From Alienimonas chondri (GTDB lineage Bacteria > Planctomycetota > Planctomycetia > Planctomycetales > Planctomycetaceae): a stretch of DNA of 36,132 nucleotides. The position numbers and the translations under genes are program-made. Within the stretch, counting starts at the first letter, position 1; the number at the start of each line of letters is the position of its first letter. Where the stretch lies: positions 1 through 36,132 of the forward strand of contig NZ_WTPX01000035.1 in assembly GCF_013036045.1 (NCBI RefSeq), read 5' to 3'. The notes beneath the pieces were generated by a model. The model did no database searches and was not told the origin of the DNA. It saw only the letters and a list, made by a program, of their open reading frames with translations. Positions 2,839-36,132 of the stretch are shown here, piece by piece.

Positions 2839-3402
2839 GTGGCTGATCGACTCACCGGCAAACGCATCGCCTTTCTCGCGACCGACGGGTTCGAGCAGGT
2901 GGAGCTGACCGACCCTTGGCAGGCGATCAAAGACGCCGGGGCGGAGGTCGAATTGATCTCGCTCAAAAGCGGCGAGATCCAGGGGATGAACCACGACGAA
3001 AAGGGCGACACGTTCTCCGTCGACCAAACCGTCGACGCGGTCTCCGCCGGCGATTATCACGGTCTCGTGCTGCCCGGCGGGGTGGCGAACCCGGACACGC
3101 TGCGGACGGACGAGGGGGCGGTGGGGTTCGTTCGCGACTTCTTCCAGCAGCACAAACCGGTCGCCGCGATCTGCCACGGACCATGGACGCTGATCGAAGC
3201 CGACGTGGTCCGCGGTCGGAAGGTCACCTCCTGGCCGAGCCTGAAGACCGACCTCAAGAACGCCGGCGCCGAGTGGGTCGACGAGGAATGCGTTTGCGAC
3301 GAAGGCCTCGTCACCAGCCGCAACCCGGACGACCTACCCGCGTTCTGTGCCAAGGCGATCGAGGAGTTCGCCGAGGGCAAACACGCCGAGCAGACCGCCT
3401 GA
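2839..3402 (+). CDS. DJ-1/PfpI family type 1 glutamine amidotransferase-like protein
   Basis: This 187-aa cytoplasmic protein matches the DJ-1/PfpI superfamily, whose YhbO/PfpI-type members are described as stress proteins, proteases or deglycases that act on glyoxal adducts. The nucleophile elbow AICHGPW places the conserved cysteine at C112 with H113 beside it; the conserved acidic residue is E19 in DGFEQVE. LVLPGGVANPDTLR near residues 77-89 is also typical. The start is GTG at 2839 with AGCAGG at 2825-2830 as ribosome binding site. Length is normal for the family. Position just behind the zinc dehydrogenase suggests joint expression and a role in carbonyl stress, but this is inference from context. 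Confidence 0.92.
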   Translation: MADRLTGKRIAFLATDGFEQVELTDPWQAIKDAGAEVELISLKSGEIQGMNHDEKGDTFSVDQTVDAVSAGDYHGLVLPGGVANPDTLRTDEGAVGFVRDFFQQHKPVAAICHGPWTLIEADVVRGRKVTSWPSLKTDLKNAGAEWVDEECVCDEGLVTSRNPDDLPAFCAKAIEEFAEGKHAEQTA

Positions 3403-3415
3403 CCGATCGTTGCCT

Positions 3416-3452
3416 GGTTAACGGGCGCCCGGCCAACGGCCGCCCGGTTACC
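3416..3452. terminator. Imperfect inverted repeat between convergent genes
   Basis: An imperfect 12-bp inverted repeat (3416-3427 with 3441-3452, two mismatches) lies between the DJ-1/PfpI stop and the convergent ATPase gene, overlapping the stop codon of the latter (3448-3450). It could act as a bidirectional terminator. No T tract is present. Confidence 0.3.
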
Positions 3453-5142
3453 GCACCCGCCGCAGGGGGCCGGGTTGGCGGGCGTGTCGGGGGTTCTCGT
3501 CGAATAGACCCTCGAATTGCGGGTCGCGGCGGTAGTCGAGGCGTTCGGCCCGGCGTTCGACGCCGTCGGGCAGCACCAATAATTGCTCGTCGGCCCCGAG
3601 GTCGCGGAGCGTGGCGATCGGGGTGTCCAGCACCTCCGCCCACCCGCGGGCCGCGAAGGCGCCGCGGACGCCGAACACCTGCTTCACGCCGCTGTTGTTC
3701 AGCAGTCCCGGCCACGTGGTCGGGTAGCTCGCTTTGAGCTGCGTGAGGTCTTGCCAGAAGGTCCAGACGCGGGCGCCGTAGCCGCGGCAGAGCGTGACCG
3801 CCCGTTCGAGCGGCGGGAACTGACCGAGCTGCGCCGCCTCGTCCAGCAGGAACAGCGTCGGCACGGCCAGCCCTGTCTCGCGGCTCATCACCGCTTCCAA
3901 CAGCGTCGCGACCCACAACCGCAGCAGGCCGCGATGGCTGTCCAGCTTCGGCGGGGGGATGACGAGGTAGATCGTCGTCGGCCGGCCGTCCGCGAACGCC
4001 GCCAGATCGAAGCTCGACGACCCCGGCGGATAGGGCGGCTCCGGGGCGGGGGCGGGCTTCGTCTTCGCGGCCGCTTTGGAATCGCTCTTCGGAGCCCGCT
4101 TCGGTTTGTCGTCCCCCGGGGGGAGGTCGAACGCGGGGCCGCCGAGGGACTCCGGGACGCGGCCGCCGGCGAGGCACTTCAGATAGCTGGCCGCGGTGGC
4201 CTGCACCCCGGGACGGGTTTGGGCGTCGGCGTGCTGCAGGAAGGCGGCGATCTCCCGGTAGGCGAACCGGTTCATCGACTTGCCCTGGGTGTCCAGCAGC
4301 GTGGCGAGGTTGTAGGCCACGTCGTCGCAGTGCAGCCGCTCGTGCACCCAGGAGAGCGTGCGATCCGCCGGGTTCGGCTGGGTCGCCGCGTGGGCGATCA
4401 ACCCGCTGACCACGCCGATGCCGGACTCGTCCCAGAACGGGTCTTTCACGCCCCGCATGCCCGCCGCCAGCGACGCCGCCAGCCCGCGGGCGTCGGTCTC
4501 GACGTCGGCGCCGGGCAGGGTGAGCATGTCCAGCGGATTGAGCCGGCCGAACTCCGCGTCCGCCAGATCGCTCGTTCCCGCCGCCTTCTTACCCCGGGTC
4601 GTTTTGCTCGCCGTCGACTTGCGGACGCCCCGCTTCGAGCCGTCTGCGCGGGCTTCGGAGAGCACGCCGAACGGGTTCAACACGACCACGTCCTGGCCCA
4701 TCTCCCGCCGCCGACGGGCGGTGACGCGGAACAGTTCCCCCTTCGGATCGAACGCCACGACCGATCCGGGATGGCTCAGCAGCGCGGGGATCACGCAGGA
4801 GACGCCCTTGCCGGCGCCGGTGGGGGCGAAGGTGGCGAGGTGAGCGTCCCCGTCAGAGACGATCGGCCCGCCGAGGTCTTGGTCGCCTTCGGAGCGACGG
4901 CCGGCGAGGAAGCCGACCCCTCGGCCGTGTTCGGCGCCCCGCCCCAGCGGGAGGCCGGGATCGGATTCGGGAACGTCGGATTGTTTGCGGGAGCGGGGGG
5001 AAGTACGACGACGAGCGGGCACAGGCGGCAGGCGGTCCGGTGACGAGGCGGAATCCTCGAGGCGACCGTAGACCGGCGGTCGGGAGGGCGAAGCCGGTCG
5101 GCGCTCACCCCGATTCGAGGTGCGACCGCGAGCGGCGGCCAT
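3448..5142 (-). CDS. VirD4/TraG-like type IV coupling ATPase without membrane segments
   Basis: The 564-aa protein has the nucleotide-binding core of the VirD4/TraG/TraD family, hexameric ATPases that feed DNA or protein into type IV secretion channels. The Walker A motif is APTGAGKG near 106-113, followed by VVAFDPKGE at 128-136 and a later Walker B, LFLLDEAAQL, with D434-E435. The segment GYGARVWTFWQDLTQL fits the sensor region. Two basic, low-complexity insertions (around residues 160-195 and 345-375) separate conserved blocks, and the first 60 residues are Arg/Pro/Ser-rich. The usual N-terminal transmembrane pair is absent: an in-frame TAG at 5146-5148 lies two codons upstream of the ATG at 5140-5142, so no longer form is possible. 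No relaxase or type IV secretion gene lies nearby. Family confident, role unknown; start somewhat uncertain. Confidence 0.85.
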   Translation of the reverse strand: MAAARGRTSNRGERRPASPSRPPVYGRLEDSASSPDRLPPVPARRRTSPRSRKQSDVPESDPGLPLGRGAEHGRGVGFLAGRRSEGDQDLGGPIVSDGDAHLATFAPTGAGKGVSCVIPALLSHPGSVVAFDPKGELFRVTARRRREMGQDVVVLNPFGVLSEARADGSKRGVRKSTASKTTRGKKAAGTSDLADAEFGRLNPLDMLTLPGADVETDARGLAASLAAGMRGVKDPFWDESGIGVVSGLIAHAATQPNPADRTLSWVHERLHCDDVAYNLATLLDTQGKSMNRFAYREIAAFLQHADAQTRPGVQATAASYLKCLAGGRVPESLGGPAFDLPPGDDKPKRAPKSDSKAAAKTKPAPAPEPPYPPGSSSFDLAAFADGRPTTIYLVIPPPKLDSHRGLLRLWVATLLEAVMSRETGLAVPTLFLLDEAAQLGQFPPLERAVTLCRGYGARVWTFWQDLTQLKASYPTTWPGLLNNSGVKQVFGVRGAFAARGWAEVLDTPIATLRDLGADEQLLVLPDGVERRAERLDYRRDPQFEGLFDENPRHARQPGPLRRVR

Positions 5143-5258
5143 CGTCTATGGTGACCTTGGTTCGACCTGGGGATAGCGCTTCCCGGTCAAAGTCGTTCGA
5201 TTTTGCCGTTTCTCCCGCCGGCCGCGGCTTTCCGCGTGAGTCCCGCGCCCCGGCGTTC

Positions 5259-5338
5259 GTCACGCATGGCAGCCCGAGGCGCAAGCCGAGGACGGGTGAG
5301 CCTGCCACGCGTGACAACCTCGGCTCGCGCCTCGGGCT
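5259..5338. repeat. Interleaved inverted repeats in A-B-A'-B' order
   Basis: Two inverted repeats are interleaved. A (5259-5272) pairs with A' (5302-5315), 14 nt with one mismatch. B (5271-5291) pairs with B' (5318-5338), 21 nt with one mismatch. The order A-B-A'-B' means both helices can coexist only as a pseudoknot, or alternate. The element lies between the XylR-like regulator (stop at 5364, minus strand) and the start of the ATPase gene. A solo copy of B occurs at 11604-11624. It looks like a dispersed repeat, and may serve as a terminator for the regulator. The rest of 5143-5363 shows no gene. Confidence 0.75.
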
Positions 5339-5363
5339 ACCGCTGATCGGACGCCATGTTTTG

Positions 5364-6602
5364 TCAGTCCGGGCGGCGGCGGAAGGCGCCGGGGGTCTGG
5401 CCGGACTCCCGTTTGAAGAACCGGGCGAACGTCTCCGTGTGGAGGAAGCCGGTGCGGTCGGCGATCTCCGCGACCGTCAACGCGGTTTCGCCCAGCAGGT
5501 GCCGGGCGAGCGACAGCTTCGTGCGGCGAATCTCCCGGGCGGGACTGGAACCGAGCGCCTGCTTGAAACGCCGCTCCAGCGTCGCCCGGCTCAGCCCGAC
5601 GGCCCGGGCCGCCGCGGCGGCGTCGATCGGCTGGCCGACGTGGGCGCGAATCCACGCGATCGCCCGCCGCACCTCCGGGTCGTCCTCCAGCATCGCATCG
5701 ACGCTCAGCCGTTCGGCGACGCGGCGGGGCGGAATGAGAATCGGCGTCTCCGGCGGCGGGGCGCCGAGCATCATCGCCTCTAACAGTTCCGCCGCCCGGC
5801 GGCCGACCTGCCGCGGCGATTGGTCGATATACGCCAGCGGAATCGGGGAGAGCGCCGAGAGCAGCGGATCGAACTCGACGGCCAGCACCGCCACGCGATC
5901 CGGCACGCGCAGGTCCGCCGCCGCGGTCGTCCCGCGGCCCCCGCGGAGGGCCGCGTCCCGACAGAGGCAGACGATTTCATGGGCGATGTTCGTCGTCCAC
6001 ACCAGCAGCGCGACCGGCTTCGGCAGTTCGGACAGCCAATCCAGGAAGCGGTCCCGCTCCGCTCCGAGGTGCAAACGGTCCGAAGCCGGCGGATGCGGGA
6101 ACACGGCGAGCGTTCGCCCGCCGCCCGTTCCGTCGTCCAGGCCCAGCCCCACGCGAAAACCGCGTTCGACGGCGTCGGTGTAGTCCTGTCCGGGCGGGGG
6201 GCCGACAAAGCCGAACCGGGTGAACCCGCGGCTCAGATAGAACTCCGCCGCCATCCGACCGCAGGCGACCTCGTCGGAGGCCACCTGCGGACAGTTCGGG
6301 CGGTGCCCGCCGGCCCAACTGACGTTCACCGCGGGGACGCCGGCTCGCTCGACGGCGGCGCGGACCTCCGGGTTGGACATGCGGCAGATCAGCCCGTCGC
6401 CGTGCCAGTCCGCGGGGAGCCGGGGGTTCTCGTAGAAGCCGCGCGGTTCGATCCAGAGATCCCACCCACCGCCCGCCGCGGCGTACTCCGCGACGCCGAA
6501 CAGCACCTGCCGCGTCCACTCGCTGGAGGTGTGCACCAACGCCGCCACCCGCTCCCGACGCTGCAACCGATCGCCACGCTGGAGATCGGTCGGGGCGGAC
6601 AT
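5364..6602 (-). CDS. XylR-like transcriptional regulator (LacI-type sensor plus AraC HTH)
   Basis: The protein (412 aa from ATG at 6600-6602) has the architecture of XylR: an N-terminal periplasmic-binding-protein-like sensor of the LacI/GalR type (about 20-280) and a C-terminal AraC double helix-turn-helix (about 310-410). Visible AraC motifs are VGLSRATLERRFKQALG and EIADRTGFLHTETFARFFK. Planctomycetes carry many such paralogues, which usually control sugar-related genes; the ligand here is unknown because the sensor domain diverges. E. coli XylR has 392 aa, so the length fits. The open frame extends upstream to 6716, but the added residues resemble no known part of the family; alternative ATGs exist at 6686 and 6716. 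It is divergent from the lipoprotein gene at 6830, which may be a target (inference). Confidence 0.88.
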   Translation of the reverse strand: MSAPTDLQRGDRLQRRERVAALVHTSSEWTRQVLFGVAEYAAAGGGWDLWIEPRGFYENPRLPADWHGDGLICRMSNPEVRAAVERAGVPAVNVSWAGGHRPNCPQVASDEVACGRMAAEFYLSRGFTRFGFVGPPPGQDYTDAVERGFRVGLGLDDGTGGGRTLAVFPHPPASDRLHLGAERDRFLDWLSELPKPVALLVWTTNIAHEIVCLCRDAALRGGRGTTAAADLRVPDRVAVLAVEFDPLLSALSPIPLAYIDQSPRQVGRRAAELLEAMMLGAPPPETPILIPPRRVAERLSVDAMLEDDPEVRRAIAWIRAHVGQPIDAAAAARAVGLSRATLERRFKQALGSSPAREIRRTKLSLARHLLGETALTVAEIADRTGFLHTETFARFFKRESGQTPGAFRRRPD

Positions 6603-6829
6603 GCGAGAGAAACCCTTGGCTGCAACGCGGCGGGCCGCGGGCGAAGCGGCGATGCATGGAAGAGAAGCAGGGTGCGTTCTCTTCATGAACCTTTCGTCAA
6701 GGCCGCCCCAAAACACTCAGGGAGTTTGCCGCAAAACGTCATCGCCGGACACCGCATCGGGGAAGAACATCATCCCCGCAGCGAGGGTTCGCCCCACGCC
6801 GTTCTCCTGACTCTCTTGAAGGACGCCCG
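6603..6829. promoter_or_regulatory. Divergent intergenic region between regulator and lipoprotein gene
   Basis: About 227 nt separate the starts of two divergent genes and must contain promoters for both, unless the regulator starts further upstream. AAGGA at 6819-6823 is the ribosome binding site for the lipoprotein gene. The stretch is less GC-rich than its surroundings near 6700-6760. No operator could be identified with confidence. Confidence 0.4.
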
Positions 6830-8426: not shown

Positions 8427-9749
8427 ATGACCGTTCCCCCTCCTGAGGCATCGTCGTCCGCTCGTCGGGCGCCGCGCGACTCGTACGACGTGGCGGTGGT
8501 CGGCGGGGGGATCGCGGGGATGGGCGCCGCGCTGGCCGCGGCGAAGCGGGGCGAATCGGTCGTCCTGTTCGAGCGCACCCCGAAGGCCCGCGGCGCCAGC
8601 GTGCGGAACTTCGGCATGATCTGGCCCGTCGGACAGCCCGCCGGCCGGGCGCGCTCGTTGGCGCTGCGATCCCGGGCGATTTGGAAGGAGCTGGCGCAGG
8701 CCGGCGACTTCGACTGCACCCCCTGCGGCTCGTTGTTCGCCGCCTACCGGGAGGACGAAGCCGCGGTGATGCGGGAGTTCCTCTCCGGCTCCGCTGCGGA
8801 GGGGCTGGATGCGGAATGGCTCTCGCCGGAGGAGACGCTCAAACGCAGCCCGCGGGCGAACCCGGAGGGGTTGATCGGCGGGCTGTTCTCCGCGGCGGAG
8901 TGCGGCGTGCATCCGCCCTCGGCGATCGCCGGGGTGCGGGCGGCGTTGGAACAGCAGTACGGCGTGACGTTCCGCGAAGGCACGCCCGTCGTCGCCGTCG
9001 ATTCCGGCCGAGTCACGATCGCGGGGGGAGAGACGATCGCCGCACAGCGGATCATCGTCGCCGGCGGTGCGGAGGCGGCCTCGCTGTTCCCCGCGGAGCA
9101 CGCCGCCGAAGCGATGGTGAAGTGCAAATTGCAGATGCTCGAAACGGCCCCGCTTGAAGGGGGCGGTGAAGCCGGCGCCGAACCGTTCGGCCCGCACCTC
9201 GCCGGCGGCCTGACGCTGCGGCATTACAAGAGCTTCGCGGCCTGCCCGTCCCAGCCGGCGCTCGCCGCGCGCGTCGCCGCTGAGGCGCCCGAACTGGACC
9301 GGTTCGGCGTGCATGTGATGGCCGCCGAGACCCCGTGGGGCAGCCTGATTCTGGGCGATTCGCACGAGTACGGCGACGACGTCAGCCCGTTCGACAGCGC
9401 CGAGATCGACGCCCTGATCCTCCGCGAACTACGGCCGATGCTGAGCCTGCCCAGTTGGGAGATCGCCCGCCGCTGGCACGGCGTGTACCTCAAACACCCG
9501 ACCGAACTGTTCCTCGCCAAGCCGGTCGCCGAGGGGGTGACGCTGTTCAACGGCTTCGGCGGGAACGGCATGACGCTGGCGCTGGGCGCCGCCGAGACGC
9601 TGTTCGAACCGCCCGCCGTCGCGTCCACGACCGGCGACGAGCCGACGGACGAGATACCGATTCCGTCGGTCGCCCCGCGCTCGGACGCCCCGCGCTCCGA
9701 ATCGATGACGTCCGCTCCCCAGACTGCCCTGACAGGATTCCCGCGATGA
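8427..9749 (+). CDS. FAD-dependent oxidoreductase, TIGR03364-like
   Basis: The protein (440 aa from ATG at 8427) is a flavoprotein of the D-amino-acid oxidase superfamily. The dinucleotide-binding motif VVGGGIAGMGAALAA lies at 25-39 and the acidic end of the second strand at VVLFERTPKARGAS. The stretch RNFGMIWPVGQPAG and the C-terminal LFNGFGGNGMTLALGAAETL resemble the TIGR03364 family, which is often found in phosphonate-related loci beside phosphonatase-like hydrolases (family knowledge). Substrates of such enzymes are amines or amino acids; which one applies here is unknown. A TTG at 8409 could extend the protein by six residues, but the ATG is preferred. The last residues are Ser/Pro-rich and extend beyond the fold. 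The stop codon overlaps the start of the phosphatase-like gene (ATGA at 9746-9749), so the two are likely translated together. Confidence 0.85.
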   Translation: MTVPPPEASSSARRAPRDSYDVAVVGGGIAGMGAALAAAKRGESVVLFERTPKARGASVRNFGMIWPVGQPAGRARSLALRSRAIWKELAQAGDFDCTPCGSLFAAYREDEAAVMREFLSGSAAEGLDAEWLSPEETLKRSPRANPEGLIGGLFSAAECGVHPPSAIAGVRAALEQQYGVTFREGTPVVAVDSGRVTIAGGETIAAQRIIVAGGAEAASLFPAEHAAEAMVKCKLQMLETAPLEGGGEAGAEPFGPHLAGGLTLRHYKSFAACPSQPALAARVAAEAPELDRFGVHVMAAETPWGSLILGDSHEYGDDVSPFDSAEIDALILRELRPMLSLPSWEIARRWHGVYLKHPTELFLAKPVAEGVTLFNGFGGNGMTLALGAAETLFEPPAVASTTGDEPTDEIPIPSVAPRSDAPRSESMTSAPQTALTGFPR

Positions 9750-11632
9750 GCCGCCCAAACGTTCGCCCCCTGTTCGCCGCCGCGCTCGGCGCGGTTCTGT
9801 CGCTGCTCGTCGAGCCGGCGAGCGCCCATGACGGGCCGGACCCGCTGGTGTATTACCGGTTGAACGCCGCCGCGGTGGAGGGCGAGACCCTCAAGGCCCG
9901 GCTCGGCCCGCCGGCGGAACTGAGTGCCGCAGTTGAATCGGCCGACGACGGCGCCGCGCTGCGGTTCGTCGCGGAGACCGGCGGCGCCGTGATCGCCCCG
10001 ACCGTCGCCGCGGCCGGCGATTTGCTGCCGACGGCCGCCCTGACCGCCGCCGCGACCGTTTCGATCGAACGCCCAACTCGTTGGGGCGGGATCGTCGGGG
10101 CGATCAGCGACGACGGCGAGGACGAACACGGCTGGCTGCTGGGCTACGACGAAACCTCCTTCACCTTCGCGATCGCCGGCGCCGATGGAGTGTCGTTGAC
10201 CTATCTCAAAGGCAGAACACCCTATGAACGCGGCAAGCTGTACCGTGTGGTCGGCGTTTACGACGGCAAAACGATGCAGCTGTGGGTGAACGGCCAGCTC
10301 GACGCCGAATCGATGGAGCAGTCCGGCCCCGTGCGGTACGCCGCTGCGTCGCCTTTCGTCCTCGGCGCCTACCGCGACGGCAACGAGCATCACGGGCTCC
10401 AGGGCCGCCTGCGGAGCGTCAGCCTGTACGGCCTCGCCGCGAAGCAAAAGTGGGTCGAACATGACTTCGCCGACGTGAAAACCCTCACCACGGCGCCGGC
10501 GGATCTGTCCGGCGTGCCGTTGAAGTTGGTGGTCGAACCCTATCTGCAATACGGCACGCAGACCGGGATGACGGTCATGTGGCGCTCCACGATTCCCGCG
10601 ACCGGTGCCGTGCTCTGGGGCGAGACCGCCGAGTGCCCGCACCGCGTCGAGGGCGAGGCGGGGCGGGAGATCCACGAGATTCGCCTCACGGAATTAAAGC
10701 CGGAGACGCAATATTTTTATCGGACCGAAACGACGATCGAAGGCGGGGCGACCGTCGCCACGGAGGTCTCCACCTTTCAAACCGCGGTGAAGGAAAACAC
10801 CCCCTTCGCCTTCGCCGTCATCAGCGACACCCAGGGCAATCCGCAGGTCTCCGGCCAGATCGCCGCCGCCGCGTGGGAGCATCGCCCCAGCTTCGTGCTG
10901 CACCCGGGCGATCTGGTGAGCACGGGTTCCAACGCGGAACACTGGACGCAGCATTTCTTCCCGGGGATGAAAGAGCTGATCCGCTACGCCCCGTTCTATC
11001 CGGTGCTGGGCAATCACGAGCAGGACGCTCGCAATTATTACGACTACGTCAGCCTGCCGGACCCGGAGTGGTTCTATACGTTCCGCTACGGCAACGCGGA
11101 GTTCTTTATGGTCGATTCGAACCGCAACGTCGGCCCGGACTCGGAGCAGTACCCGCTGCTGGAAAAGGCGCTCGCCGGTTCGACGGCCCGGTGGAAGATC
11201 GTCTGCCATCATCACCCGCCGTACTCCTCGGACGAGAACGACTACGGCGACCTGTGGAAGTCGAACGTCTCCACTCGCGGCGACGACCGGATTCGCCAGC
11301 TCACGCCGCTCTATGAGAAGCACGGCGTGGACATCGTCTGGAACGGGCACATTCATAGTTATGAACGCACCTGGCCGATCAAAGCGGGCCGCCCGGTCGA
11401 GCGGCACGGGATCGTGTACATGATCACCGGCGGCGGCGGCGGGCCGCTGGAGACGCCCGGCCCGATCCGGCCGTCGTTCCAGAACACGGTCCGCCGCGGC
11501 CATCACTTCTGCATGGTGCGAGTAAACGGCGGCACGCTGGAGTTCACCGCCTACGCCCTCGACGGCGTCCCCTTCGATCGGCTGGTGATTCGCAAAGCTC
11601 CGCAGCCCGAGGCGCGAGCCGAGGCCGAGTGA
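9746..11632 (+). CDS. Secreted LamG plus purple-acid-phosphatase-like metallophosphoesterase
   Basis: The 628-aa protein has a signal peptide (cleavage after ASA, residue 27), a LamG/concanavalin-like domain (about 30-240), a fibronectin-III-like PAP N-terminal domain (about 255-345) and a calcineurin-like metallophosphoesterase domain (about 355-560). Metal-binding motifs are SDTQ with D361, HPGD with D389, GNHE at 422-425, HHHPP at 488-492 and NGHIHSYER at 533-541, all as in purple acid phosphatases. It should hydrolyse phosphate esters outside the cytoplasm; the LamG domain may bind a carbohydrate or surface ligand. ATG 9746 overlaps the upstream stop by 4 nt, with AGGA at 9734-9737. The final residues (QPEARAEAE) are encoded by a dispersed repeat, so the native C-terminus may have been replaced or extended. 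Confidence 0.92.
   Translation: MSRPNVRPLFAAALGAVLSLLVEPASAHDGPDPLVYYRLNAAAVEGETLKARLGPPAELSAAVESADDGAALRFVAETGGAVIAPTVAAAGDLLPTAALTAAATVSIERPTRWGGIVGAISDDGEDEHGWLLGYDETSFTFAIAGADGVSLTYLKGRTPYERGKLYRVVGVYDGKTMQLWVNGQLDAESMEQSGPVRYAAASPFVLGAYRDGNEHHGLQGRLRSVSLYGLAAKQKWVEHDFADVKTLTTAPADLSGVPLKLVVEPYLQYGTQTGMTVMWRSTIPATGAVLWGETAECPHRVEGEAGREIHEIRLTELKPETQYFYRTETTIEGGATVATEVSTFQTAVKENTPFAFAVISDTQGNPQVSGQIAAAAWEHRPSFVLHPGDLVSTGSNAEHWTQHFFPGMKELIRYAPFYPVLGNHEQDARNYYDYVSLPDPEWFYTFRYGNAEFFMVDSNRNVGPDSEQYPLLEKALAGSTARWKIVCHHHPPYSSDENDYGDLWKSNVSTRGDDRIRQLTPLYEKHGVDIVWNGHIHSYERTWPIKAGRPVERHGIVYMITGGGGGPLETPGPIRPSFQNTVRRGHHFCMVRVNGGTLEFTAYALDGVPFDRLVIRKAPQPEARAEAE
11604..11624 (+). repeat. Solo copy of the 5.3-kb repeat arm inside a gene end
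   Basis: This 21-nt stretch is identical to the reverse complement of arm B' (5318-5338) and differs by one base from arm B (5271-5291). It lies inside the last codons of the phosphatase-like gene and encodes part of its C-terminus. No A arm accompanies it. Confidence 0.8.
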
Positions 11633-31754: not shown

Positions 31755-31821
31755 GACAGGGCGGAGGGGAGAATCGAACCGGGCGCGAGTCTAGGGACAT
31801 CGATCGTCCCCGTCTCGTTCT

Positions 31822-31983
31822 CCCCTCTCCCTCAGGGAGAGGGGCCGGGGGTGAGGGTGAGCGATTTCTCACCCGCAGGCGTTCGTAGAGCGATGCACAG
31901 AAGAGCGGCAGGACCGTGAACGGCGGCCGTTCGGTTCCAGCCCCCTCACCCCCAGCCCCTCTCCCCCAAAAGGGGGCGAGGGG
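31822..31983. repeat. Composite inverted-repeat element, copy A
   Basis: Left unit: a perfect 11-bp palindrome (31822-31832 with 31834-31844) followed by a C2-G5 tract and gtgaggg to 31857. Right unit: the inverted form, beginning at about 31943, with its own 12-bp hairpin (31956-31967 with 31972-31983, one mismatch). Between them lies a variable core holding a 7-bp hairpin (31855-31861 with 31868-31874). The whole measures 162 bp. It fills much of the 383-nt gap between the sigma factor start and the small secreted protein (31755-32137); no gene is seen in the rest of the gap, which must hold both divergent promoters. Confidence 0.88.
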
Positions 31984-32137
31984 AGTACGAAACGAGCGGC
32001 TGCGCGTCTTTCTGAAAATACCTCTCGAAACGTGAGAAGCAGTTCGGCGGGGGCGTCGTATCGCTCCGCGAGGGGGCCGAACGCTCCCCGCTTTTCAACC
32101 CTCGCCGCTCTCGGCTCCCCCCAACGAACACGTCCCC

Positions 32138-32419
32138 ATGATCGCCCGCCTGCTCTCCGCCGCCGCCCTCGCCGCTGTGTTGGCCGTTCCGCAAGTCGCC
32201 TCCGCCGGCGGTTGCTCCGGCGGGTCCTGCTACGACTCGGGATACAGCGACTACGAACCCTGCCGCTACGAGTGGGTCACGAAGTACCGCATCAAGATCG
32301 TCACCCGGCACAAGCACGTGGTGAAGTACGACCGCTACGACGAGCCGTACCTCGCGAAGGTGCCTTACCTCGCCAAGGTCCGCGTGCCCTACCGCGTGCG
32401 GGTGAAGGTTTGTCACTGA
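32138..32419 (+). CDS. Small secreted Tyr/Lys/Arg-rich protein
   Basis: The 93-aa protein has a clear signal peptide (about 1-23, cleavage after ASA), leaving a mature chain of about 70 residues. The mature part begins GGCSGGSC, has further cysteines in EPCRYEW and at VCH near the end, and is dominated by alternating basic, aromatic and valine residues (KYRIKIVTRHKHVVKYDRYD). A short internal repeat is visible in YLAKVPYLAKVRVPYRVRVKV. The alternating pattern suggests beta strands, and four cysteines could form disulfides. The charge suggests binding to polyanions or the cell envelope (inference). No family is recognised with certainty. No Shine-Dalgarno precedes the ATG at 32138. It stands between composite repeat copy A and the DUF1549/DUF1553 gene. 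Confidence 0.75.
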   Translation: MIARLLSAAALAAVLAVPQVASAGGCSGGSCYDSGYSDYEPCRYEWVTKYRIKIVTRHKHVVKYDRYDEPYLAKVPYLAKVRVPYRVRVKVCH

Positions 32420-32526
32420 GGACCGATCCGACGACGGCCGATCCGGCGGCGGCGGGGCGGTAAGATGGCACGCGGCCGATGGGTCGCCCCATTCGCCCCC
32501 CGCCGTCGTCTCGTTTCGGTCGTTGT

Positions 32527-35500
32527 ATGTCGAGGACGCCTTCGCCTGTCGCAGCCGCCTCCGTCGGATTGGCGCTGCTCCTCGGTCTGTGCGGCGGGCC
32601 GTCGTTCTCGCTCGGCGAGGAACCGGCTGACCCGGCGCCGAACGAAACCGCGCCGGCGGAGGCCGTCTCCTTCAACCGCGACGTGCGGCCGATCCTGTCG
32701 GACCGCTGCTTTCACTGTCACGGGCCGGACGCCTCGAATCAGGATTCCCCCTTCCGGCTCGATACGCGGGAGAACGCGACCGCCGACCTGGGCGGATACG
32801 TCGGCGTCGCGCCCGGCGATCTGAAGGGCAGCGAGCTGCACGCCCGCATCCATGCGGACGACTGGTCGAAGATGCCGCCGGCGGACTCGAACCGCACGCT
32901 GACCGACGCCGAACGGGACATCCTGGACCGCTGGATCGAAGCCGGCGCCCCCTTCGAGGCTCACTGGTCGTTCCAACCGCTGCCGGACGCCGTGGCGGTG
33001 CCCGAGGCCGGCGGGGGATGGGCCGTCTCGCCGCTGGACCGGTTCGTCGCCGCGACCCATGCGGAGCGGGGACTGAACCCGGCGCCGCCCGCGCCGCCGG
33101 AGGCGTGGCTGCGTCGCGTGACGTTCGATCTGACCGGCCTGCCGCCGGCGCTGGCGGAGCTCGACGCGTTCGCTGAAGCCTTCACAACCGACCCGAAGAC
33201 CGCCCGGGCCGAGGCGGTGGATCGGCTGCTGGCCAGCGAGGCCCACGCCGAACGGCTGACGGCGGAATGGCTGGACGTGGCCCGCTATTCGGACAGCAAC
33301 GGCTATCAGCGGGACGATGCGCGGTTCGTCTGGCCGTATCGCGATTGGGTGTTGAACAGCTTCCGCGACAACAAACCGTACGACGCGTTCCTCACGGAGC
33401 AGCTCGCCGGCGATCTGTTGCCGAACGCGACGCCGGAGCAGCGCCTCGCGACCGCGTTCAACCGGCTGCACTCCTACAAGAAGGAGGGCGGCTCTCCGCC
33501 GGAGGAGTTCCGCGTGGAGAACGTCGCCGACCGCACGCACACCGCCGCCGCGGCGTTCCTCGGGCTGACGATGGAGTGCGCCCGCTGCCACGATCACAAA
33601 TACGATCCGATCACGCAGCGGGACTATTACGCGATGTCCGCGTTCTTCGCGAACGTGGAGGAACGCGGACTGATTTCCTTCTTCACCAGCGCCGTCCCCA
33701 CCCCGGCGATGAACTGGCCCAACGACGCGCAAGCCGCGGAGATCCACGCCGCCCGCTCGGCCGTGGAGGACCTCGAAGCCCGCTTGGAACGAGTGCGGAC
33801 GGAGGCGAACGATGACTTCGCCGCGTGGATGGCGAAGCGGGGTGAAGAACCTGTCTCCCCTCTCCCCTCTTTTAGGGGAGAGGGGCCGGGGGTGAGGGGA
33901 GAGGAACCGACCGCTGAACGTTCCGCGCCCGACAACTCTCCGGAGTCCTCTCAGCAAGCGAATGCGGGTGAGGGCTCGTCACCCTCACCCCCGGCCCCTC
34001 TCCCTCAAGGGAGAGGGGGGGACAAAACGCCGGGCCTCGTCGCCAGTCTGTCGTTCGAGGCGACCGCACCGCCGCCGGAGGGGGCGAAGCACGAGACCGC
34101 CGGCAATCTGACGCCGACGACGGGGCACGCCTTTCCCAACACGGCGGGCGCCGATGCGATTAGCCCGACGGCGAACGAACTAGTCGACGGCCGCGTCGGC
34201 AACGCGGTGCGACTCAATGGCGACGACGCCGTCGTGCTGCCGGGCGCCGGGCATTTCGAACGGCATCAGCCGTTCTCCTTCGCCCTATGGATCAAACCGC
34301 CGGAGCTGACCGAGCGCGGCGTGATCGTCCGCCGCTCTCGCGGCTGGGACGACGCCGGATCGGTCGGCTACGAACTGACGAAGCGGGGCGACAAACTCGC
34401 CGCCCGCATCGCCCACTTCTGGCCCGGCGACGCGCTCGGCGTGGAGACGACCGAACCGCTGGTCGCCGACCGTTGGACGCACGTCGCGGTCACCTACGAC
34501 GGCTCCAGCCGGGCCGCGGGGCTGCGAATGTTCATCGACGGCGAACCCGCCGCGATCCGCGTCACGGCGGACTCCCTCACCCGCACCATCGCCAAGTGGG
34601 GCGGCGGCTACCCGGATCTCGCCATCGGTTCGCGGTATCGCGACCGCGGCTTCAAGGACGGGATCGTGGACGAGTTCCGCCTGTTCGATCGCTCGCTGAC
34701 GCCGATCGAAGTCCGCGGGCTGTACGAACCGGGATCGACCGACGCCCTGCTCGCCAAGCCGGCCGAGACGCTGAACGAGGCGGAGCGGAACGCACTGCGG
34801 GCGTACTTTCTCGCGACGGTTCACGAGCCGACCCGCGAAGCCCGGGCGGCGCTGACCGCGGCCCGGGAGCGGCTCGGCAAAGCGGTCGACGCCACGCCGG
34901 CGATCACCGTGATGCGGGAGATGGAGACGCCCCGGCAGACCTACCTGCTCAACCGCGGCGCCTACGACCAGCCGGGCGAACCGGTCGACGCGGAGACCCC
35001 CTCGTTCCTGGCGCCCTTCCCGGAGGGCGCCCCCCGCAACCGGCTCGGCCTGGCGAACTGGCTGACGGAACCGAGCCACCCGCTGACGGCCCGCGTCGCG
35101 GTGAACCGCTACTGGCAACTGCTGTTTGGCGAGGGGTTGGTGAGCACGCCGGAGGACTTCGGCAATCAGGGGGCGCCGCCGTCGCACCCGGAACTGCTCG
35201 ATTGGCTCGCCCGGGACTTCGTGAACCACGGCTGGGACGTGCGACGGTTGCTGCGGCAGATGGCTCTCTCGGCAACCTACGCCCAAGACAGCGTCGTCAC
35301 CCCGCAGGCCCGCGACCGTGATCCCGAGAACCGCTGGCTGACCCGCGGCGGCGGCGCCCGGCTCTCCGCGGAGATGATCCGCGACAATGCGCTCGCCGTC
35401 AGCGGGCTGTTGGAGGAACGCTTCGGCGGCCCGCCGGCCAAGCCGTACGACGTGGCGCTGGCCTACACGCCGCTGACGCCGGACAAGGGCGCCGGCCTCT

Positions 35501-35958: not shown

Positions 35959-35994
35959 CGAACGATGAACTCACCGGCGCCCGCCCCCTCTCCT

Positions 35995-36132
35995 CCCCTC
36001 TCCCTCAGGGAGAGGGGCCGGGGGTGAGGGTGGGCGAGCCTTCGCAGGCTCGCGATCATGGTGCGGCCCGCTCAGGACGGGTGCGGAGCATCGGGGGCGT
36101 GTCTGGCGATCGGCCGGTTCCAGCCCCCTCAC
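35995..36132. repeat. Composite inverted-repeat element, copy C (cut by window end)
   Basis: Left unit: a perfect 11-bp palindrome (35995-36005 with 36007-36017) followed by the C2-G5 tract and gtgaggg to 36030. The core contains an 8-bp hairpin with a TCGC loop (36034-36041 with 36046-36053). The right unit begins at 36115 with an 18-nt match to copy A (31932-31949) and runs off the window. It lies 36 nt after the DUF1549/DUF1553 stop codon; no gene is seen in 35959-36132. Confidence 0.88.

Follow-up and report, generated by a model that had tools for sequence, protein, structure and literature searches.

Results

The window, by which we mean the whole 36,132-nt stretch of DNA that was analysed, holds two interleaved inverted repeats at 5259-5341, located between the stop codon of a regulator gene and a VirD4/TraG-like gene. 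The regulator is of the XylR-type AraC class (5364-6716, minus strand; HTH_18, Peripla_BP_3 and PBP1_XylR), and its stop lies 22 nt from the element. The next gene, on the same strand, encodes a VirD4/TraG-like coupling protein (3448-5142; T4SS-DNA_transf).

Inverted repeat A (5259-5272 / 5302-5315) is 14 nt long and 93% matched, with one mismatch, and inverted repeat B (5268-5291 / 5318-5341) is 24 nt long and 92% matched, with two mismatches and 26 nt between its arms. The A-B-A'-B' order described in an earlier sequence-only reading is therefore confirmed, as are the length and single mismatch of A; B had been given as 21 nt with one mismatch and is longer, with a second mismatch. The two repeats overlap by five bases (5268-5272, GGCAG), which form the outer end of a REP arm. 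The parts of B are a first REP arm (5268-5291, plus strand) reading GGCAG followed by CCCGAGGCGCAAGCCGAGG, a 26-nt spacer with its GGGTGA side first (5292-5317, plus strand), and a second REP arm on the minus strand (5318-5341), both arms being inverted-repeat members of one family. The spacer contains A' (5302-5315), and across the family its length is nearly fixed while its sequence is variable. The outer part of A (5259-5267, plus strand) lies outside the conserved element, in the flank of the window copy, where it can pair with the spacer.

Folded as RNA, either strand of the stretch 5250-5350 is predicted to form the B/B' hairpin (-59.4 and -66.6 kcal/mol; z -4.9 and -6.8), with A/A' left unpaired. 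A shorter piece without B' (5259-5315) does pair A/A' in the model (-30.5 kcal/mol, z -3.4). As single-stranded DNA, the window doublet is likewise predicted to fold into a hairpin (-31.8 and -33 kcal/mol; z -6.7 and -7.6). The proposed hairpin of a single window arm reached -2.7 kcal/mol, no better than shuffled sequence, and the other arm, as well as an arm of the sibling REP called T below, folded otherwise; thus the energy model gave no stable hairpin for either single arm, W or T. A search of the window for Rfam families returned none at the gathering threshold.

The arms of B belong to a dispersed REP, here called W, which reads CCCGAGGC-GCRA-GCCGAGG. A BLAST search with 106 bases against the window's own genome, a 5.3 Mb draft in 355 contigs, gave 82 matches, palindromic sites being counted on both strands. 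Allowing up to two mismatches, the W core matched 73 times in this genome versus 11 for a reversed control, and 56 times versus 12 in the sister genome, the one other genome of the genus returned by the relatives searches. Exact CRA cores numbered 48 and 26, respectively, with none in the control, and the matches merge into 40 and 34 sites. Among these are 41 clean inverted doublets (26 in the own genome and 15 in the sister genome) with a core-to-core length of 64-67 nt; a longer doublet, of 87 nt, was excluded from this set. Since B/B' recurs genome-wide, it stands far beyond chance, and the earlier suggestion that two oppositely oriented units of a dispersed repeat are present was right in essence. 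Single REPs occur besides the doublets: of the 40 own-genome sites, 13 are something other than W doublets, a hybrid among them, and the window itself carries a single REP of the same family (11605-11624, plus strand) that overlaps the 3' end of the ORF at 9335-11632. In 79 of 82 arms the fourth position is C, which gives the foot GGCAG, and the second arm of the window copy reads GGTAG. At E 1e-6, matches were limited to the two genomes of the genus among the 40 searched, the own genome included.

The A/A' match does not share this distribution. Across the 82 element ends, the flank-to-spacer match is best in the window copy, with a score of 10 (13 positions, one mismatch), the runner-up scoring 8. 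A match of this length is found at that one end only, being confined to the window copy among the 41 clean doublets; the other 81 ends show none as long, and hence there is no conserved pseudoknot. Runs of A/A' quality appeared in 0.063% of 100,000 shuffles of the window flank and, with all 82 ends included, in 0.12% of 8,200 shuffles. The chance per end is thus 0.0006-0.0012, so that roughly 0.05-0.1 such cases would be expected among 82 ends, figures to be read with the fact that the pair was singled out for being noticeable. We take A/A' to be accidental or the result of a single change beside the window copy; chance fits, and so does a single copying event that the GGCAG/CTGCC pair would have primed.

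Nor do the two arms of an element, or its two spacer halves, vary together. The two arms of an element differ at 2.34 of 25 positions, compared with 2.42 for arms paired at random (41% of 1000 resamplings were as low), and at the single position that varies freely, the choice of A or G in one arm is independent of that in the other (Fisher p 0.54). The spacer halves pair at 3.66 of 10 positions with their own partner and at 4.53 when permuted, 5000 of 5000 permutations being at least as high. Compensatory change was looked for in both the arms and the spacer halves of the clean doublets, and none was found. Arms as different as random ones, and spacer halves that pair less with their own partner, indicate that pairing between the arms is not what is conserved; rather, each arm is kept independently and the spacer has two unlike sides.

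The sequence-only reading had noted that the two helices would need a pseudoknot or would exclude each other. These results bear directly on a proposal in which helices A and B make up a conserved pseudoknot or RNA switch where the regulator transcript ends. The repeats do interleave, the B hairpin is strong, and A/A' folds once B' is cut off. Against this, an A-length match occurs at 1 of 82 element ends, neither arms nor spacer halves show compensation, no Rfam family matched at the gathering threshold, and the energy model picks B alone for the full stretch. The homologous copies thus lack compensatory change, the first of the two observations that the earlier reading had named as telling against its proposal; on the second, the independent occurrence of A and B, the result is that B recurs without A. 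We therefore rejected the pseudoknot, which we consider highly improbable.

The family has a preferred position relative to genes. In the two genomes, gaps that hold elements were 33 convergent, 28 co-directional and 2 divergent, versus 16, 81 and 29 among the other gaps of the same loci (Fisher p 1e-8 for convergent and 3e-4 for divergent gaps); these other gaps, of at least 30 nt, were taken from the neighbourhoods of elements, and all gap numbers are approximate, the gene finder being a simple codon-based one trained on nine long ORFs of the window. Distances of 40 nt or less made up 46 of 98 to flanking stop-codon ends versus 5 of 32 to start ends. By this crude gene finder, none of the 40 own-genome sites was called intragenic, 8 of the 40 being unclassifiable at contig or locus edges, and 3 of the 34 sister-genome sites were. 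A few own-genome sites overlap a gene end by about 30-40 nt.

Such placement could mean that the element, a REPIN by origin, has been kept here for a hairpin that protects or ends the mRNAs of the flanking genes. The excess of short distances to stop codons and the strong excess in convergent gaps speak for such a function, and the REPs described in PMC3733652 are placed alike. However, the hairpin has no T run after it on the strand of the regulator and is therefore not a standard intrinsic terminator; furthermore, selection against insertion at promoters could give the same bias. We regard a retained 3'-end function as possible, while not favouring it. The earlier idea of a structured RNA at the regulator's 3' end keeps some ground as a possible secondary role, the element lying 22 nt past the stop and the family lying behind genes, and loses some because no Rfam family reached threshold. 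On the folding model, the window copy would probably, as a side effect, give the regulator mRNA a strong hairpin at its 3' end.

A sibling REP, T, reads CCCGAAGC-GCAA-GCGAGG; it has 33 matches in the own genome and 91 in the sister genome, against none for its control. W can be viewed as a form of T in which a G-C pair takes the place of an unpaired A, a reading that is our own. T flanks a RAYT gene of the sister genome (G001:3812193-3812654), and it also combines with W: there are 11 distinct T+W hybrid doublets, all but one of them in the sister genome and the remaining one in the own genome, a count that excludes row L245 of the own genome (G000) as a repeat of row L195 of the sister genome (G001). 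All hybrids are 67 nt long with a 26-nt spacer, and in every one the T arm lies on the side of GGGTGA, which one hybrid has as GAGTGA. The window spacer is up to 0.77 identical to hybrid spacers and 0.88 and 0.81 identical to those of two W+W copies. One hybrid occupies the same place in both genomes of the genus, and some copies must therefore predate their split. At another site, a doublet is present in the own genome and the sister genome lacks about 105 nt holding it, with a boundary that is not clean. The sister genome was also searched for an ortholog of the window locus that might show an empty site, and none was found: the best sister-genome DNA matches to window 3400-6800 are REP copies, together with a few short matches to the regulator part, and among the REP regions of the sister genome the clear match at gene level is to the ORF at 2839-3402, neighbouring the locus.

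Matches to the Y1 transposase family were present in 16 of 21 genomes examined, own included, the own genome having seven, five of them above the Pfam cut-off. W flanks none of the 14 RAYT-like loci of the genus (two genomes, within a flank of roughly 1.5 kb), a set in which one locus (L159) ends early, some matches are weak and the own genome is represented by its 355-contig draft. At two further Y1_Tnp matches (L065 and L067), no W was found with the search patterns used there. Most of the 14 loci have inverted short repeats around them, of differing types, for example CCGGAGC-GCAA-GCTCCGG, CCGACGC-GCCA-GCGTCGG, CCCGAAGC-GTCA-GCGAGGG and T. In another genus (four genomes), 4 of the 11 RAYT loci examined have W on either side of the RAYT gene: both copies are exact at L163 and L170, one is exact and the other has one mismatch at L164, and the two have two mismatches and one at L161. 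The distances from W to these RAYTs are about 20-125 nt, greater on one side of L163, and these RAYT-flanking copies have GTAG, CTAG or CTAA as their foot.

Across the loci L061-L067, L125-L129 and L158-L187, most RAYT-like genes of the genus have their own flanking REP type, several with GNNA loops, and the two genomes of the genus hold at least six RAYT-flanking REP types. The RAYT frames at L062 and L125 extend into a flanking REP, which adds a C-terminal PTRSVSEG stretch.

The RAYTs tested exceed the Pfam Y1_Tnp cut-off. Against the NCBIfam REP transposase model, the T-type RAYT scored 27.7 bits versus a cut-off of 80 and the W-flanked RAYT gave no match; against the NCBIfam IS200 model, the tested RAYTs scored 30.3 and 34.2 versus 55. 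The Y and Q of Y----Q are present in 9 of 9 aligned RAYTs and NHVH in 8 of 9. No relative with a solved structure was found by sequence at E 0.01. A tree was built from 10 of 19 intended proteins, the other nine not having been extracted by the motif filter. Three W-flanked RAYTs of the other genus group together (support 83/89), as do three RAYTs of the present genus with X, T and V types (83/83, at an open fork), and the T-flanked RAYTs do not form one group. The tree speaks, weakly, against a recent transfer of a W-flanked RAYT between the genera.

The exact W core occurs in 9 of 397 genomes of the class. It is numerous only in this genus (48 and 26) and in one genus of another family (162, 38, 9 and 3), with single occurrences in three further class genomes. 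Parallel origin and old transfer could each account for a 19-nt core common to the two genera. Named genomes were scanned with a 21-nt pattern that takes in the core, a scan that may omit records of the window's own genome; 52 of 55 stretches carried planctomycete names, including Blastopirellula marina DSM 3645 and four Kuenenia stretches that we take to be planctomycete; the other three names were a Rubrivivax MAG, a Hyphomicrobiales MAG and an unnamed bacterium. A search with a planctomycete REP consensus found a related family in 7 of 59 relatives, with 183 matches in G028 (control 0), and pointed to the RAYT loci. The identical 19-nt core stands in G000 and G001 on one side and in G028, G105, G086 and G068 on the other, two genera of different families, at 3 to 162 matches per genome.

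Discussion

In the present study, an interleaved repeat behind a regulator gene was traced to a dispersed family. The element is of a known kind, a REPIN, and not a new RNA pseudoknot. It is a short, probably mobile piece of DNA present at about forty places in the genome, mostly just behind genes. Taken together, the results lead us to a probability of about 0.88 that the feature consists of two inverted REPs and a 26-nt spacer that are non-autonomous and spread as single-stranded DNA through a RAYT recognising the REP hairpins. The evidence consists of the dispersal, the doublet form, the near-fixed spacing, the placement behind genes, the same REP at RAYTs in another genus and the hybrids with a RAYT-linked sibling in this one. 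Several results weigh against it: W at none of the 14 RAYT-like loci of the genus, a GGCAG in place of a GTAG foot, single-arm hairpins that are unconvincing by energy, an insertion boundary that is not clean at the one informative site, RAYT scores below the NCBIfam cut-offs, and the lack of the compensatory changes reported for SBW25. Movement itself was not observed. Recognising a dispersed, probably mobile repeat in the apparent pseudoknot thereby prevents a false RNA call.

A short, palindromic and dispersed element might also be a MITE derived from an ordinary DDE insertion sequence that has terminal inverted repeats. This explanation is improbable, given that 13 of the 40 own-genome sites hold no W doublet (one has a hybrid instead), that doublets mix two REP types, and that the same core flanks genes for Y1 tyrosine transposases.

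For the REPIN, we propose that a RAYT, an IS200-like tyrosine transposase, would bind and cut the arms as single-stranded DNA and so move the doublet. The enzyme for W in this genus may have been lost, may be absent from the draft, or may be a T-type RAYT that acts on hybrids and thereby on W; a T-type RAYT could in that case move W in trans. The window copy may no longer be mobile, or may move only rarely. Most likely, then, it is a satellite REPIN, moved in trans or now stranded, which may double as the 3'-end hairpin of the XylR-type regulator mRNA.

We also consider, as less likely than not, a more specific version in which W is an orphan, directional REPIN family that has no transposase of its own in the genus and rides the T transposase through T+W hybrids, an identical 19-nt core having arisen or been kept separately in another family with its own RAYTs. 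If so, REP type and transposase can uncouple and re-couple, and the arm shape GGC-GCRA-GCC inside two GA steps would be a preference of class-3-like enzymes.

In E. coli BIMEs, Y and Z REPs pair. Doublets here can similarly join two related REP types, and the REP sequences and transposase subclass differ from those of BIMEs as mentioned in PMC6006769.

The element is also closely akin to the REPINs of Pseudomonas fluorescens SBW25 (PMC3116915, where REPINs are defined). In both, an inverted REP doublet has conserved arms and a variable spacer of fixed length, is extragenic, and is accompanied by singlets. In contrast to the SBW25 elements, which are reported to carry compensatory changes, none were found here, the REP foot and sequence differ, and no cognate RAYT was found in the genus.

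From Planctomycetes, PMC6006769 reports class 3 TnpA-Y1 genes that have atypical structures on their flanks and reach high copy numbers. The RAYTs, as distinct from the window element, resemble this class in NHVH and Y----Q, and the W family does so in its high copy number and may do so in a CCGA, fitting the stated CnGA foot, just 5' of GGC-GCRA-GCC, a comparison made with the written description. The weak atypical hairpin at that position of the W arm lacks energy support. Unlike the class 3 entries in the table of the same source, the RAYTs here carry YVRDAQ and similar sequences in place of the Y motif YV[VI][AENY]EQ.

A superfamily of GTAG-tagged REPs has also been reported in Planctomycetes (PMC3733652). 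Like W, these REPs lie between convergent and co-directional genes and form dimers in opposite orientation, yet the GTAG (or GTGG) foot that marks them is replaced by GGCAG in nearly all arms here. Among the literature matches listed, with subscription journals and supplements outside the scope, no paper on the W REP family was found.

The two genera, each with more than one RAYT/REP pair, together with hybrids of REP types and one enzyme-less REP in one genus, provide a small testable system that bears on how strictly a RAYT is tied to its REP.

The window holds other repeats as well. Another dispersed repeat, with five matches to a GGGAGAGGGGCCGGGGGTGAGGG core at up to two mismatches, is found at 31820-34021 and 35988-36065, and sequence similar to it adjoins REP sites at one locus in both genomes and at another in the own genome. 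Finally, a 69-nt, 99% inverted repeat (1-69 / 155-223) stands at the very start of the contig, within a coding frame, and looks like an assembly artefact at the contig end.
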